Shown here: in pieces, positions 22,438-27,950 of the stretch
Numbering within the stretch: position 1 is the stretch's first letter
Layout: every line of letters starts with the position of its first letter
Assembly (NCBI RefSeq): GCF_007990445.1
Contig: NZ_AP019841.1
Span: 1,922,001 to 1,986,000 of the forward strand
DNA: 64,000 bases
Reading direction: 5' to 3'
Origin: Leptotrichia wadei
GTDB taxonomy: Bacteria > Fusobacteriota > Fusobacteriia > Fusobacteriales > Leptotrichiaceae
The notes under the pieces: generated by a model
Told to the model about the DNA's origin: nothing
The model's database searches: none
What the model saw: only the letters and a program-made list of their open reading frames with translations
Made by a program: the position numbers and the translations under genes

Positions 22438-23208
22438 CTATATAATTTCAACTTCACATTCATCAAAAATTTTTTTATAACTTTCCAAATAATCCTTTTT
22501 ATCTTTTTCACAAATAAAAACATCAAAATCAGACAAATTACTGAATTTATAACTTCCTAATATTCCTAATTTCTTATATTCAGTCACTAAAAATATTTTT
22601 TTAGAAATTTTCATTATTTCTTTTTTTGTATTTCCATCATTTAATTCAAAATTCATAACCTTTTCAGCTTCCAGATCTATCCCGGCACTTCCAATAAAAG
22701 CCTTGTCAACATTATATCTTTTTATATAATTAATCGCTTCACTTCCAACATTGCCACCTACTTTTTTATTATACTCCCCGCCTATCATAATAATATCCAC
22801 TTTAGAATTTTTATTAAAATGTGTGGTAATACTAGGCATATTTGTAATAAGAGTTATTTCCTTTTCAGAATTTGCAAGATATTCTGCCGCAATATAATTT
22901 ATACTTGTAATGTCAAAAAAGATTGTTTCTCCATTTTCAATATTTTCTATAATTTTTCTTGCAACAGTTTCCTTTTGCTTTGTTCTATTTATAATTCTTT
23001 CCTCAAGAGTGCTTGAATGTACCAGTTCCTTTAGTAAAATTGCACCTCCATGGGTTCTTTTCAATTTTCCTTCCTGCTCTAGCCTTTTCAAATTTTTTCT
23101 TATAATAACTTCTGAAACATTAAATTTTTCTGCCAAATCAGTAACTTTTACTTTCTTTTCATTTTCTAAAATTTCTAATATTTTTTCCAGTCTTTCATCC
23201 AAAAACAT
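22438..23208 (-). CDS. DeoR-family transcriptional regulator
   Basis: A 256-residue DeoR-type sugar-pathway regulator. The N-terminal HTH reads KVKVTDLAEKFNVSEVIIRK followed by the family hallmark LKRTHGGAILL. The C-terminal DeoR sensor domain contains FFDITSINYIAAEYL and the ITLITNMPS and IIMIGGEYNKKVGG segments of the sugar-phosphate isomerase-like fold. Family members bind phosphorylated sugars. It lies just downstream of the aldolase gene on the same strand, and near the divergent glycyl-radical enzyme genes, so it is the likely local regulator. GGAG sets the start. Confidence 0.9.
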   Translation of the reverse strand: MFLDERLEKILEILENEKKVKVTDLAEKFNVSEVIIRKNLKRLEQEGKLKRTHGGAILLKELVHSSTLEERIINRTKQKETVARKIIENIENGETIFFDITSINYIAAEYLANSEKEITLITNMPSITTHFNKNSKVDIIMIGGEYNKKVGGNVGSEAINYIKRYNVDKAFIGSAGIDLEAEKVMNFELNDGNTKKEIMKISKKIFLVTEYKKLGILGSYKFSNLSDFDVFICEKDKKDYLESYKKIFDECEVEII

Positions 23209-23268
23209 AACAAATCTCCAATACTTTTTATAATTATCCAAATTATAGCAAAATTTTCAAAACTTTAT

Positions 23269-23377
23269 TAGATCTATTCGCTAACCTAATTTTTTTATTT
23301 AACAAGAAATCAAGCTCCTTGCTTCAGAACGTTTGTTTTATTAAATTTTAAATAAATATAGTTTCCGAACAAGTCTA
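23269..23377. repeat. Type B repeat, complete copy with terminal inverted repeats
   Basis: The ends TAGATCTATTCGCTAAC and GTTTCCGAACAAGTCTA are imperfect inverted repeats of 17 bases. The interior contains CAAGCTCCTTGCTTCAG. At about 109 bases it is the most complete type B copy in the window. Confidence 0.72.
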
Positions 23378-23422
23378 TTAATTATGCTAGAATTAGGTTT
23401 TGAAAAGTTCAAGAAGCCAGAA

Positions 23423-24139
23423 CTATAATAAATCAAGCAATGTTTTATCTCCATAAACTTTTTCCCAATCTGAATTAAAAGTATCCATGCTCCAGTCTGT
23501 ATAAGGATGATAAATTAATTTTTCAAAAACATCTGGAGCTACAGTTACCGATTTTGCACCAGCCAGAATTGTTTCGTGAACTTGTCTTACATTCTTAAAC
23601 GAAGCACCTAATATTTTAGGCTCAAAAATTCTTTTATACTGCGACAATTTTTCTTCATCTGTTTTTTTATTCATTTCAAGAATTTTATAGGCATCCTTCA
23701 CAATTTCAATTCCATTTTCCCCAATATTGTCAGAACGGTTAATATATGGAGCCATGTATTCTGCCCCTGCTTCTGCCGCCATAATTATCTGTTGAGGTGA
23801 CAAAATCCCTGTTGCAGTTATTTTATGCCCATCCTTTGCCAAAATTTTCATGGCTTTTATCCCTTCAGGCGTTACAGGAATTTTTGTATAAAAATTTTCT
23901 CCGAACGTATCACGTAAAAGCTGCACTTCCTTTACCATTATTTCAGCTGTGCTTCCCACAGCCTGTGCATGCACAATCTTGTCTCTTCCAATAATATCAA
24001 AAATATCATTTATAATCTCTTTAAAATCTCTTTTTTCCTTCGCAATAATAGTAGGATTTGTAGTAACTCCTGCTATCGGAAAAATATCACTAATTTTTTT
24101 TATACTCTCCAAATTCGCTGTATCAATAAAATATTGCAT
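23423..24139 (-). CDS. fsa: Fructose-6-phosphate aldolase (transaldolase family)
   Basis: A 238-residue class I aldolase of the TalB-like/FSA group. QYFIDTANLESIKKISDIFP and IAGVTTNPTIIAKE open the barrel, and the Schiff-base lysine lies in NFYTKIPVTPEG. LGASFKNVRQVHETILAGA is the C-terminal signature. FSA cleaves fructose 6-phosphate or 1-deoxy analogues to glyceraldehyde 3-phosphate and a ketone. The third ATG has the best spacing from GAGAGG. It is divergent from the glycyl-radical enzyme and activase genes and adjacent to DeoR; in E. coli fsaA sits with ybiW/ybiY in the same way, suggesting a shared pathway. Confidence 0.9.
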   Translation of the reverse strand: MQYFIDTANLESIKKISDIFPIAGVTTNPTIIAKEKRDFKEIINDIFDIIGRDKIVHAQAVGSTAEIMVKEVQLLRDTFGENFYTKIPVTPEGIKAMKILAKDGHKITATGILSPQQIIMAAEAGAEYMAPYINRSDNIGENGIEIVKDAYKILEMNKKTDEEKLSQYKRIFEPKILGASFKNVRQVHETILAGAKSVTVAPDVFEKLIYHPYTDWSMDTFNSDWEKVYGDKTLLDLL

Positions 24140-24312
24140 TTTCATCATCCTCTCTTTTTCGTTTTTTGTTAAAACAACAATTCTATATTTTAATTAGTTT
24201 CGTTTTATTTCGATATTATTTTAATATATAATTTAAAAAATGTCAATGCTTTTTTTCAAAATTCGTAAAAATTTTGATTAAATAATTAACTTTTTTGTGC
24301 TATAGTTAAATT

Positions 24313-24385
24313 GTAATAAAGAAACAATCATGTACAATAAATAACGACAATAGCTAGTTCAAATTTGAGCTAGCTTTTTGTTTTT
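24313..24385 (+). ncRNA. Candidate short RNA ending in a palindromic terminator
   Basis: AGCTAGTTCAAATTTGAGCTAGCT is nearly a perfect palindrome and is followed by TTTTTGTTTTTT on the plus strand, a strong terminator. No plus-strand gene lies upstream in the gap, so something short must be transcribed into it. An extended -10 (TGCTATAGT, near 24300) could start a RNA of about 70 nt. Confidence 0.5.
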
Positions 24386-24407
24386 TGAATTTTGATATAA
24401 TATTTCT

Positions 24408-24570
24408 GGGTTCGTTATACCCAATTTGTGCATGATCGGGAGTGGTGTCCAAATGAAACAGGATATAGTCAACTTGTGGTTATTTACTACATCCTAAGCA
24501 GAAGATAACACCCCAAAATGAAAAAATAATTTTCCCCCTGCAATTATTATTTATTGCAGATTTTTTTATA
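24408..24570 (+). ncRNA. Candidate structured RNA with terminator upstream of the activase gene
   Basis: A TATAAT box at 24396 would start transcription at GGG. The RNA would form a GGGT/ACCC hairpin, a long stem closing GGTGT with ACACC, an inner AGGAT/ATCCT stem, a GTGGT/ACTAC tip with unpaired purine-rich loops, and finally a CTGCAAT/ATTGCAG hairpin with seven T. The GC content is clearly above that of the flanks. A separate promoter for the activase follows, so it is either an independent small RNA of about 160 nt or a riboswitch-like leader. I compared it mentally with ZTP/pfl, T-box, SRP and 6S RNA and saw no match. Confidence 0.55.
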
Positions 24571-24588
24571 AATTTTTTTCAAAAACTA

Positions 24589-24617
24589 TTGACAAATTTT
24601 AAAAAATAATGTAAAAT
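24589..24617 (+). promoter_or_regulatory. Sigma-70 type promoter of the activase/glycyl-radical operon
   Basis: TTGACA and TAAAAT with exactly 17 bases between, about 65 bases before the activase start codon and just after the RNA terminator. Confidence 0.82.
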
Positions 24618-24682
24618 CGAAATATAAAGAAACAAAATGAAATAAAAAGATATTTTTAAAGAAAAAAAGAAGGGTGAAACGT

Positions 24683-25501
24683 ATGAGAGCATTAGTTACG
24701 GACATTGAAAGAGGAGCTACATTTGATGGGCCTGGGATCAGAACAGTCGTGTATTTTAAAGGATGTCCGCTTAGATGTCTGTGGTGTTCCAATCCTGAAA
24801 CACAGAAGCTGGAAAATGAATTTTGGGATTATGAAGGCTCTCTTTATAAAGGAAATAGAACTTCGTGTTCTGACTGTATCGCCACAAGTACATTAAAACA
24901 AGTTGCGAAAGATATGACTCTGGAAGAAGTGTTTACAATTGTGATGAAGGATGAAAATTTTTATAGAAATTCTGGAGGAGGAGTTACATTAAGTGGTGGA
25001 GAAGTTCTTGTAAATTCGGCATTTGCGATAAAACTCTTTGAAAAATTAAAAGACGAGTATGTTAATACAGCGATAGAAACTACTGGATATGGAAGTTACA
25101 GAGAACTTGAAAAATTGGCAAAGTTGACAGATACGATTTTATTTGACATAAAGCATATGGATAGTGGAAAACATAAAAAATATACCACTGTTTCAAATGA
25201 AATAATTTTGGAAAATCTTACAAAACTTTCTAAATGGCATAAAAAAATTATTATGAGATTCCCATTTATAAAAGGGATAAATGATGATGAAAAAAATATT
25301 CACGAAACAGCAAAGTTCTTGAAAAAATTAAATTTGCTGGAAGTAAATATTCTTCCTTATCATACAATGGGACTTGAAAAATATAGAAAACTAAGAATGC
25401 TGTATCCGATGAAAACACTTGAAAAACATACACAGGAAGAACTTGATAATGCTTTGCAAATAATGAAAAGTTATGGTTTAAAGGCAAAACTGAATGGATA
25501 A
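24683..25501 (+). CDS. Glycyl-radical enzyme activating protein (radical SAM)
   Basis: A 272-residue radical-SAM activase. GATFDGPGIRTVVYFKGCPL carries the start of the cluster motif C28-x3-C32-x2-C35 (CPLRCLWC), followed by SGGGVTLSGGEVL and IETTGYGS. It makes the glycyl radical on its partner using S-adenosylmethionine. The segment after the cluster is short and has only one extra CxxC, so the eight-cysteine ferredoxin insert of some PflD-type activases is absent. The ATG eight bases after AAGGG is preferred to the upstream GTG. It is 46 bases before its partner enzyme. Confidence 0.93.
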   Translation: MRALVTDIERGATFDGPGIRTVVYFKGCPLRCLWCSNPETQKLENEFWDYEGSLYKGNRTSCSDCIATSTLKQVAKDMTLEEVFTIVMKDENFYRNSGGGVTLSGGEVLVNSAFAIKLFEKLKDEYVNTAIETTGYGSYRELEKLAKLTDTILFDIKHMDSGKHKKYTTVSNEIILENLTKLSKWHKKIIMRFPFIKGINDDEKNIHETAKFLKKLNLLEVNILPYHTMGLEKYRKLRMLYPMKTLEKHTQEELDNALQIMKSYGLKAKLNG

Positions 25502-25547
25502 TACGAAAATTAAAGATAAATAATAAAATATATTGGAGGGAAAAGCA

Positions 25548-27950
25548 ATGAGAGAATTTGTTTTAAAAAGTGAAAGAGTGAAAAAATTAAGAGAATCGGC
25601 TTTATCAAAATTCCCTGGTGTCAGTGTCGAAAGAGGTAGGCTTTTAACAAAGGCATATAAGGAACACGAAGGGGAATCAAAATATATGGTTCGTGCTTAT
25701 GCAGTTAAAGAAATTCTGGAAAATATGACAATTTACATAAAAGATGGGGAACTTATTGCAGGAAATCAGTCTGTAGATGAAAGAACAGCGCCACTTTTCC
25801 CAGAATACGCAGTAGACTGGATTGTAGATGAAATTAATACAAAAGGAAACTTTGATCACCGTGATGGAGATAAGTTCAGAATCCCTGAAGAAGAAATTCC
25901 TGAACTTTTGGAAATATGTGAATGGTGGCGAGGAAAAACATTAAAAGATAAAGCTCACGCTCAGATGCCGCAGGAAATAAAAGAAGCTGGAATTGTGAAA
26001 ATTATTCATGGAGAAGGAAATATGACTTCTGGTGACGGACATATTGTTCCTGATTTTAAAAAAGTTCTGACAAAAGGTCTGAAGGGTGTAATCGAAGAAG
26101 CTAAGGCTTCTATGGAAAAAGTAGACATTACAATTTATGGCGGGTACAATAAAATTGATTTCTTAAAGGCTGTACAAATTGTGGCACAGGCAACTATTGA
26201 TTTTGCTCATAGATTTGCAAATTTGGCAAAAGAACTTGCTGAAAAGGAAACTGATCCGCAAAGAAAAGAAGAATTACTTCAAATTCAGAAAAATTGCTTG
26301 AATGTCCCTGAAAATCCTGCTCAGACATTCTGGGAAGGAGTACAGGCAATCTGGTTTATCCATTTAGTAATTCAGATTGAAAGTAATGGACATTCAGCTT
26401 CTCTTGGAAGAGTAGACCAATATTTATATCCACTTTACAAAAAAGATGTACTGGAAGGCGATTTAGACAGAGAATTTGCAAAGGAAATGCTGCAATGTCT
26501 ATGGGTAAAACTTTACTCTGTAATAAAAGTCCGTTCAACTTCACATTCTGGATATGGTGCAGGTTATCCAACTTATCAGAATGTTACAATTGGAGGTTCA
26601 ACTCCAAGCGGAAAAGATTCTACAAATGAATTGAGCTACTTAATTTTAGAAAGTGTTGCAGAAAACAAACTTACACAGCCAAATTTATCTGCAAGATTTC
26701 ATATAAATTCTCCAGAAAAATTTATTAGAAAATGTGCCGAAGTAGCTGCAACAGGTTATGGAATGCCCGCAATGCACACAGATGAAATAATAGTTCCTGC
26801 ATTATTAAATAAAGGCGTAAAAATCGAAGATGCCTACAATTACTCAATGGTTGGATGTGTTGAAGTGGCTGTTCCTGGAAAATGGGGATATAGATGTACT
26901 GGAATGACATTTTTAAACTTTGTAAAGGCTACTGAACTTGTATTAAATGATGGTTATGATGCCAGAACTGGGCTTCAATTATTAAAAGCCGGGAAATTGA
27001 CTGACTATGAGACTTATGATGATTTATGGGAAGCATGGAAAAAATATATGAAACATTATACAAAATTATCAGTTGCTCTTGATGTGCTGGCTGATACACA
27101 TTTGGAAGATTTTCCTGATATTTTATTATCAAGTCTAGTTGATGACTGTATTGGCAGAGGACTTTCTGCAAAAGAAGGCGGAGCTATTTATGACATTATT
27201 TCAGGACTCCAAGTTGGAATTGCAAATGCTGCAAATTCACTATATGCTCTAAAAACAACTGTTTTTGATAAAAAAATCTTGACAAAAGAAGAAGTTTACA
27301 ATGCACTTCAGACAAATTATGAAGGTGAAAATGGAGAAAGAATCAGAAAAATATTGTTAGAAGTTCCTAAATACGGAAATGATATTGATGAAGTGGATGA
27401 ATTTGCTACAAACATCTACTGGACATACATTGATGAGATTCAGAAATATCACAACACAAGATATGGAAGAGGCCCAATTAACGGCGGTTATGGAGTTTCG
27501 ACATCTGGAATCTCTTCAAATGTGCCAATGGGAACAGTGAGCGGTGCAACTCCAGACGGAAGATACGCTTATACTCCTGCAGCTGAAGGAGGTTCTCCAA
27601 CTCAAGGAACTGACACAAACGGTCCTACAGCAGTATTAAATTCTGTAAATAAATTGCCGACTCTGATGATTACAGGTGGACAGTTATTAAATCAGAAATA
27701 TTCGCCAGAATTGGTAAATACTTCAGAACAATTTGAAAAATTTGTAAACATAATAAAATCATTTATAAGCTCAAAAGGATGGCATATTCAATTTAACATT
27801 ATTTCAGGAAAAACATTGAAACAGGCTCAAATTGAACCTGAAAAGCATAGGGACATTATCGTAAGAGTTGCCGGATACTGTGCTCAATTTGTTACACTTG
27901 ATAGAACTACACAAAATGATATTATTTCAAGAACCGAACAAAGAATATAA
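25548..27950 (+). CDS. Glycyl-radical enzyme of the PflD/YbiW type
   Basis: An 800-residue glycyl-radical enzyme. The thiyl cysteine is in YSMVGCVEVAVPGKWGYRC (about C437) and the radical glycine is in RVAGYCAQFV (about G776). GCVE with a following Glu is the dehydratase/lyase type and excludes true pyruvate formate-lyase, which has a Cys-Cys pair. The VAVPGKWGYRCTGM form resembles E. coli YbiW (PflF). Recent work, as I recall it, assigns YbiW as a 1,5-anhydroglucitol-6-phosphate lyase working with an FSA aldolase. The adjacent FSA gene supports that assignment, but the substrate here is inferred, and CutC or glycerol dehydratase-like alternatives cannot be excluded. Confidence 0.88.
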   Translation: MREFVLKSERVKKLRESALSKFPGVSVERGRLLTKAYKEHEGESKYMVRAYAVKEILENMTIYIKDGELIAGNQSVDERTAPLFPEYAVDWIVDEINTKGNFDHRDGDKFRIPEEEIPELLEICEWWRGKTLKDKAHAQMPQEIKEAGIVKIIHGEGNMTSGDGHIVPDFKKVLTKGLKGVIEEAKASMEKVDITIYGGYNKIDFLKAVQIVAQATIDFAHRFANLAKELAEKETDPQRKEELLQIQKNCLNVPENPAQTFWEGVQAIWFIHLVIQIESNGHSASLGRVDQYLYPLYKKDVLEGDLDREFAKEMLQCLWVKLYSVIKVRSTSHSGYGAGYPTYQNVTIGGSTPSGKDSTNELSYLILESVAENKLTQPNLSARFHINSPEKFIRKCAEVAATGYGMPAMHTDEIIVPALLNKGVKIEDAYNYSMVGCVEVAVPGKWGYRCTGMTFLNFVKATELVLNDGYDARTGLQLLKAGKLTDYETYDDLWEAWKKYMKHYTKLSVALDVLADTHLEDFPDILLSSLVDDCIGRGLSAKEGGAIYDIISGLQVGIANAANSLYALKTTVFDKKILTKEEVYNALQTNYEGENGERIRKILLEVPKYGNDIDEVDEFATNIYWTYIDEIQKYHNTRYGRGPINGGYGVSTSGISSNVPMGTVSGATPDGRYAYTPAAEGGSPTQGTDTNGPTAVLNSVNKLPTLMITGGQLLNQKYSPELVNTSEQFEKFVNIIKSFISSKGWHIQFNIISGKTLKQAQIEPEKHRDIIVRVAGYCAQFVTLDRTTQNDIISRTEQRI

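Follow-up and report, generated by a model that had tools for sequence, protein, structure and literature searches.

A 64,000-nucleotide stretch of the Leptotrichia wadei genome (the window; contig NZ_AP019841.1, positions 1,922,001 to 1,986,000) contains, between two divergent operons, a match to manA-II (Rfam RF04315), a published riboswitch candidate that is better explained as part of a type I toxin-antitoxin-like module. The flanking operons encode a glycyl-radical enzyme (GRE) with its activase on one side, and a fructose-6-phosphate-aldolase-type enzyme (FSA) with a DeoR/GlpR-family regulator on the other. On the basis of these sequences, the region probably represents a YbiW-type anhydroglycolysis locus with a decayed two-RNA type I toxin-antitoxin-like module between its promoters. 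We also think it fairly likely that manA-II is the mRNA of a new Leptotrichia type I toxin-antitoxin family, consisting of a 22-residue membrane peptide and a tandem, same-strand antisense RNA, which would be the first in Fusobacteriota according to the literature searched. This reading of manA-II is more surprising than the metabolic result. A preliminary description of the locus had named the four genes, all of which we found at the coordinates it gave; absent from it was the two-RNA element on the + strand between the operons, made up of the RF04315 match and a second intrinsic terminator upstream.

A peptide gene and a predicted upstream small RNA in the manA-II region

The match at positions 24431 to 24567 (+) scores 108.5 bits against the RF04315 covariance model and is a member of the family, above its gathering score of 100. 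The family was described from 85 examples in Leptotrichia, located upstream of manA or a pflA-like gene, and was considered a strong riboswitch candidate with no ligand named (PMC11109978). We reinterpret the element as the mRNA of a 22-residue hydrophobic peptide with its own terminator (stem 24538 to 24559). The window's genome has a second, sub-threshold copy upstream of manA, and across 13 Leptotrichia genomes we counted 6 copies upstream of the activase-GRE genes and 8 upstream of manA. The element is confined to the 10 genomes that carry the GRE, whereas manA is present in all 13. Low-scoring RF04315 matches in other genera were set aside, as that score level was also reached in control genomes. 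The manA gene of G010, which lacks the GRE, is split into two separated pieces (L081, L082), one with an internal TAG, and that of G012 (L070) has one in-frame TGA inside the match; the manA-side copy of manA-II is also lost in G012.

In relatives with intact copies, manA-II contains at both sites a 22-residue open reading frame (ORF), MERDI(V/I)(F/Y)I(L/I)(V/I)Q(L/I)VV(I/V)YY(I/F)LSR(R/G), located behind a GGGG(G)TG Shine-Dalgarno sequence (MERDIVFILVQLVVIYYILSRR on the GRE side, MERDIIYIIIQIVVVYYFLSRG on the manA side). The ORF starts with ATG or GTG and stops with TAA, TAG or TGA, although stop variation alone is not decisive because two of the stop variants also fit G-U pairing in the hairpin formed there. 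When GRE-side and manA-side ORFs were compared, 16 of 66 nt differed, with 8, 1 and 7 differences at codon positions 1, 2 and 3, and Nei-Gojobori estimates were 0.16-0.21 for dN and 1.1-1.6 for dS (dN/dS approximately 0.15). Random placement of the same changes gave proteins as similar in 71 of 20000 cases, and in 33 of these was the frame also kept. As judged from these comparisons, the ORF is conserved at the amino-acid level and under amino-acid selection. The peptide core has a hydropathy of 2.6-2.9 in the relatives and is bordered by charged ends, and with 22 residues the peptide fits the description of type I toxins as products of small hydrophobic peptide genes (<60 amino acids), the window copy being broken. 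While a manA-II riboswitch would be expected to form a non-coding leader, the relatives have a conserved 22-codon ORF in this position, which is frameshifted in the window copy. An order-wide search found the peptide nowhere outside Leptotrichia, and there were no matches to it in IMG/VR, plasmids or phages. Apparent extra copies in G008 and G012 were weak matches in repeats of large genes, off frame and without a Shine-Dalgarno sequence, and were judged to be due to chance.

Two intrinsic terminators are located between the window's operons, versus 0.1 expected by chance. The upstream one (stem 24352 to 24375) closes a putative antitoxin-like antisense small RNA (24301 to 24380, +), which has a -10 element TATAGT at 24301-24306 and would begin at about 24312. 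The manA-II transcript has an extended -10 element of its own, TGATATAAT (24393 to 24401, +), which is kept in most intact copies and lost where the ORF has been erased. Its 5′ leader (24411 to 24439, +) is predicted to form a hairpin whose loop is complementary to the small RNA, as is the sequence TTGTGCATGATCG. A homologous promoter, small RNA and terminator are found upstream of all intact copies and on the same strand, the stretch between promoter and terminator, about 70 nt, being complementary to the peptide mRNA in its 5′ leader. The small-RNA sequences are strongly divergent among four allele types, and the complementarity co-varies with the leader. The matrix of predicted duplexes is block-diagonal, with -19.4 to -33.8 kcal/mol for a leader of the same copy or allele and -8.8 to -18.1 kcal/mol for leaders of other alleles; the window small RNA has -21.0 kcal/mol with its own leader and -8.8 to -13.1 kcal/mol with others. 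When the small RNAs were shuffled, only 0 to 5 of 2000 did as well as the real one for the manA-side pairs and for G012, which makes these pairs exceptional. Such allele-specific duplexes are what is sought in the antisense RNA of a type I system, the RNA itself being predicted here from its promoter and terminator. Pairing with the 5′ untranslated region (UTR) of the toxin mRNA is known for E. coli IstR-1 and tisB (PMC4147584).

A further pairing is predicted within the peptide mRNA. The sequence CACCCC (24509 to 24514, +), which in intact copies is found on the stop codon or directly behind it, is complementary to the Shine-Dalgarno sequence, and the two are predicted to pair in all six of the transcripts that we folded, more weakly in the G012 copy. 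A sequestered Shine-Dalgarno sequence, at times held by a distant 3′ anti-Shine-Dalgarno sequence, is described as characteristic of type I toxin mRNAs (PMC6733600). The ORF, the complementarity and the Shine-Dalgarno pairing are shown in the sequences; if both RNAs are transcribed and the peptide is toxic, as we infer, an intact module probably works as follows. The small RNA, made from a promoter of its own and ending at its own terminator, would pair with the 5′ leader of the next transcript. This transcript would encode the 22-residue hydrophobic peptide, have its Shine-Dalgarno sequence paired with the CACCCC near the stop codon, and end at the terminator that follows. The small RNA would then block translation or mark the peptide mRNA for decay.

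We assessed the state of the module copies across the genomes. ORFs are intact on the GRE side in G003, G005, G009 and G012, and on the manA side in G001, G002, G004, G005, G009 and G011. In the window, what is left of the ORF is MKQDIVNLWLFTTS followed by a stop codon (24453 to 24497, +), with a Shine-Dalgarno-like GGGAG at 24438-24442; compared with the intact copies of G012, G009, G003 and G005, a 13-nt deletion near 24468 has caused a frameshift, and the module there is therefore a relic. The GRE-side copy of G011 has lost its start codon and is frameshifted, and the GRE-side ORF is erased in G001, G002, G004 and G007. On the manA side, the promoter, leader and start codon are gone in G000 and G007, and G003 and G012 have nothing, or only a terminator stub. 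The window's genome and G007 keep no intact ORF. In most broken copies it is the ORF half that is destroyed while the small-RNA sequence is still there, and its retention in several of them is as expected if the peptide half is harmful.

The genes downstream of manA-II appear to have promoters of their own. The activase gene is separated from the manA-II terminator by a conserved promoter, and manA is preceded by a similar one; both remain where manA-II has been erased or lost. The promoter in front of the activase and GRE genes (TTGACA-17-TAAAAT, 24589 to 24617, +) is kept in all 10 genomes, including 4 with an erased manA-II copy. Promoters that lie downstream of the terminator and survive the loss of manA-II argue against gene control by manA-II termination, although tandem promoters may be at work, and as far as can be judged by sequence, at neither locus does the downstream gene depend on transcription through manA-II.

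Alternative explanations for manA-II

Our first reading was that manA-II is a riboswitch with an anhydrohexitol phosphate or mannose 6-phosphate as its ligand, and we set it aside once an ORF, a small RNA that pairs with the leader and promoters beyond the terminator had been found. As a true metabolite riboswitch, manA-II would let mannose 6-phosphate or an anhydrohexitol 6-phosphate control the terminator, and would thereby regulate manA as well as the activase-GRE operon. Rfam and the source paper rate it as a strong candidate, located upstream of manA and pflA-like genes (PMC11109978); furthermore, both neighbours use hexose 6-phosphates, and among Leptotrichia genomes manA-II is restricted to those with the GRE. 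However, the element differs from what RF04315 would be as a riboswitch in that its transcript, with its own promoter, holds a conserved ORF under amino-acid selection, its leader pairs with an allele-matched small RNA encoded upstream, and the neighbouring genes have conserved promoters that lie beyond the terminator and outlast the element. The three-stem fold is explained by the pairing of the Shine-Dalgarno sequence with CACCCC, and inspection by eye revealed no convincing competing P1/terminator (antiterminator) structure. We therefore regard a riboswitch as very unlikely. Still less probable, in our opinion, is attenuation, in which translation of the ORF as a leader peptide would govern termination downstream. 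The arrangement would fit, with an intrinsic terminator after a short ORF and a metabolic gene further on, but the ORF has no run of regulatory codons, its hydrophobic residues are kept at the protein level, and neither the independent downstream promoters nor a separate complementary small RNA would be accounted for.

Alternatively, the small RNA and the peptide may be a non-toxic regulatory pair in sugar-phosphate metabolism, for example with a membrane peptide that restrains a transporter of the phosphotransferase system (PTS), like SgrT of E. coli. Such a role would be in accordance with a hydrophobic peptide with charged ends, and with a restriction to GRE-bearing genomes and to two genomic sites, beside manA and the presumed anhydrohexitol-phosphate lyase gene. 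We nevertheless consider it unlikely, given the repeated decay at one or both sites, with nothing intact in the window's genome or in G007, and given that type I toxin-antitoxins typically have insulated RNA pairs of divergent sequence and a sequestered Shine-Dalgarno sequence; the shared distribution with the GRE may reflect one lineage. Several observations do weigh against a toxin-antitoxin module. It is found at just two sites, each next to hexose-6-phosphate genes, a distribution that may point to a metabolic function. Searches of Pfam and NCBIfam assigned the peptide to no known toxin family, and the part of the RNA fold that lies inside the ORF is conserved as well, which leaves room for an RNA function. 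The duplexes of the window copy and of G003 were only modestly better than those of shuffled small RNAs (51 and 85 of 2000), and both the small RNA and the peptide, with its putative toxicity, are predicted.

The type I toxin-antitoxin-like module resembles tisB/istR-1, shoB/ohsC and zorO/orzO in having a small hydrophobic peptide and a neighbouring small RNA that pairs with the 5′ UTR (PMC4147584). While the istR-1 and tisB RNAs are divergent, the Leptotrichia RNAs are in tandem on the same strand, and the peptide has no sequence similarity to known toxins. In the aapA/IsoA system, IsoA is a cis-antisense RNA overlapping its gene, whereas the Leptotrichia small RNA is encoded upstream of the peptide mRNA. 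According to a 2025 paper reporting the first type I toxin-antitoxins in Cyanobacteria, such systems had until then been known from Proteobacteria, Firmicutes and Tenericutes alone (PMC12390103), and in the literature searched we found none named for Fusobacteriota. If our reading is correct, Fusobacteriota would join the phyla with type I toxin-antitoxins, and an orphan Rfam riboswitch candidate would no longer be a target of ligand hunting and would instead count as a peptide gene accompanied by an antisense RNA. It would also follow that a Shine-Dalgarno/anti-Shine-Dalgarno pair together with a terminator can mimic a riboswitch in comparative RNA pipelines, and other short-leader candidates may merit a check for small ORFs.

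The glycyl-radical enzyme and its neighbours

The GRE gene (25533 to 27950, +; likely start ATG 25548 by homology) encodes a complete core, with a GCxE catalytic loop at residues 441-444, within the motif GCVEVAVPGKWGYRC (residues 441-455) that the preliminary description had pointed out, and the radical-glycine loop RVAGY at residues 778-782. That description assigned the enzyme to the YbiW type, an assignment that a higher score for CutC, HypD or glycerol dehydratase would have undermined. Among solved relatives YbiW gave the best score (761 bits), followed by glycerol dehydratase (625), PflD (509), HypD (481) and CutC (456), and the enzyme scores under the NCBIfam equivalog cut-offs for PflD, HypD and CutC. 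When aligned, it shares 46% of its residues with YbiW, 40% with glycerol dehydratase and 37% with PflD. Maximum-likelihood analysis placed it inside a YbiW clade of 17 rows with support of 100/100, while PflD is located elsewhere, together with other Leptotrichiaceae enzymes. Within the clade, the GRE and its relatives from Clostridium, Propionispora and Sebaldella form a subclade that is sister to a group of YbiW, Spirochaete enzymes and one Leptotrichiaceae enzyme. Alignment with the characterized YbiW identified 31 positions at which all clade members agree while PflD and glycerol dehydratase both have other residues, among them residues of EGNMTSGD, SHS and KWGYRC and of the RYGRGP loop; at these signature positions the GRE matches YbiW and not PflD.

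We presume from these similarities that the GRE is a 1,5-anhydroglucitol-6-phosphate lyase. However, an identity of 46% and a separate subclade count against so specific an assignment and leave room for another anhydrohexitol phosphate, and because of this low identity and the sister position of the subclade with the Clostridium enzymes, the substrate is presumed, and may be either 1,5-anhydroglucitol 6-phosphate itself or another anhydrohexitol phosphate related to it. The enzyme might instead act on 1,5-anhydromannitol 6-phosphate, the substrate of PflD, or on a different cyclic polyol phosphate, and still feed FSA. This is a possibility that we take seriously but doubt: the strong support for the subclade with the Clostridium and Propionispora enzymes and the moderate resemblance to YbiW speak for it, while the signature residues of the YbiW clade, kept here unlike in PflD, the existence of separate PflD-clade enzymes in Leptotrichiaceae, and the linkage to FSA speak against it.

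Immediately upstream is the gene of a radical-SAM GRE activase (24674 to 25501, +; likely start ATG 24683), with matches to TIGR02494 (269 bits) and PF04055. Its ferredoxin-like insert is shortened, with about 30 residues including one CxxC motif missing that are present in some form in G004, G009, Sebaldella, Clostridium and E. coli YbiY. This short form is common to most Leptotrichia orthologues, even though the GRE is 96-99% conserved. On the opposite strand, FSA (23423 to 24148, -; PF00923; TIGR00875, 211.6 bits) keeps the AQ, KIPVT and APYINR motifs of E. coli FsaA/FsaB, is the sole full-length FSA in the window's genome, and is presumably a 1-deoxyfructose-6-phosphate aldolase. The second gene of its operon (22438 to 23241, -; likely start ATG 23208 by homology) encodes the DeoR/GlpR-family regulator, with NCBIfam matches of the GlpR/AgaR/SrlR type that are all under equivalog cut-offs; its orthologues adjoin the GRE in Leptotrichia, Sebaldella and Clostridium.

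DeoR is presumed to repress both divergent operons. The fsa promoter (TTGACA-17-TAAAAT, 24218 to 24246, -) is conserved in 10 of 10 genomes, and directly after its -10 element is an operator-like box, ATCGAAATAAAACGAAAC (24197 to 24214, -), presumed to be a DeoR site. A near-copy, ATCGAAATATAAAGAAAC (24616 to 24633, +), directly follows the activase/GRE promoter and is likewise a presumed DeoR site. The two boxes are nearly alike and are kept in 10 of 10 genomes save for single-base changes, from which we infer that DeoR may regulate through both. No DeoR-like box was seen upstream of gldA on inspection by eye.

The proposed anhydroglycolysis pathway

In E. coli, 1,5-anhydroglucitol is taken up by the PTS and YbiW cleaves its 6-phosphate to 1-deoxyfructose 6-phosphate, while a parallel PflD route starts from 1,5-anhydromannitol 6-phosphate (Ma et al. 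as reviewed, PMC12441222). The preliminary description had given the YbiW conversion in the same way, and was also right that ybiW, ybiY and fsaA are neighbours in E. coli, ybiW-ybiY being divergent from fsaA in the MG1655 genome. In the work of Ma et al., FSA and then GldA reportedly act after the YbiW step. We examined linkage in 17 fetched loci with a GRE of at least 60% identity; the activase adjoins the GRE in 17 of 17 and FSA is nearby in 14, and gldA adjoins in two Leptotrichiaceae metagenome-assembled genomes. The linkage of activase, FSA and DeoR to the GRE is also seen in Clostridium and Sebaldella. The window's genome encodes elsewhere a GldA that is 56% identical to that of E. coli, and PTS permeases of two families (EIIC, EII-Sor) are present. 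GRE, FSA and GldA occur together in the same 10 of the 13 Leptotrichia genomes and are all missing from the same 3. A caveat is that these 3 genomes are probably one lineage (ManA approximately 74% identical), so that the co-occurrence may represent a single event and is supporting rather than independent evidence.

The anhydroglycolysis reading proposed in the preliminary description is therefore well supported at the sequence level as regards YbiW-clade membership, the linkage to FSA and DeoR and the presence of GldA, whereas the exact substrate it named is probable only by analogy. With gene content, clade and linkage shown, the substrate, repression and fluxes would be as follows. An anhydrohexitol, probably 1,5-anhydroglucitol, would enter via the PTS as its 6-phosphate; the activase would put the glycyl radical on the GRE, which would open the ring to give 1-deoxyfructose 6-phosphate; FSA would split this into glyceraldehyde 3-phosphate and hydroxyacetone; and the hydroxyacetone would be reduced by GldA. 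Both divergent promoters would be under the control of DeoR through the matching boxes.

Apart from the manA-II region, the locus is mostly ordinary, a further member of the YbiW kind with a presumed substrate. It resembles E. coli ybiW-ybiY-fsaA in that the GRE belongs to the same clade, the activase gene is adjacent, the FSA gene is divergent and a GldA is encoded in the genome, and differs in its only 46% identical GRE of a separate subclade, its shortened activase and the presence of a DeoR gene within the locus. With FSA and GldA completing the downstream part, oral Leptotrichia would be added to the gut enterics as bacteria capable of anhydroglycolysis. The E. coli pflD-pflC-frw-ptsA-fsaB-gldA cluster, for 1,5-anhydromannitol-6-phosphate lyase, is a parallel pathway with FSA and GldA, but its GRE belongs to a different clade (37% identical) and its PTS genes are adjacent, whereas none adjoin the Leptotrichia locus. 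PflD-clade enzymes were also observed in other Leptotrichiaceae genera (L036, L037, L038), which suggests an anhydromannitol branch in the family, and a Spirochaetaceae contig (L064:9634-11360) has a YbiW-clade enzyme with a PflD/PflC-like pair approximately 3 kb away.

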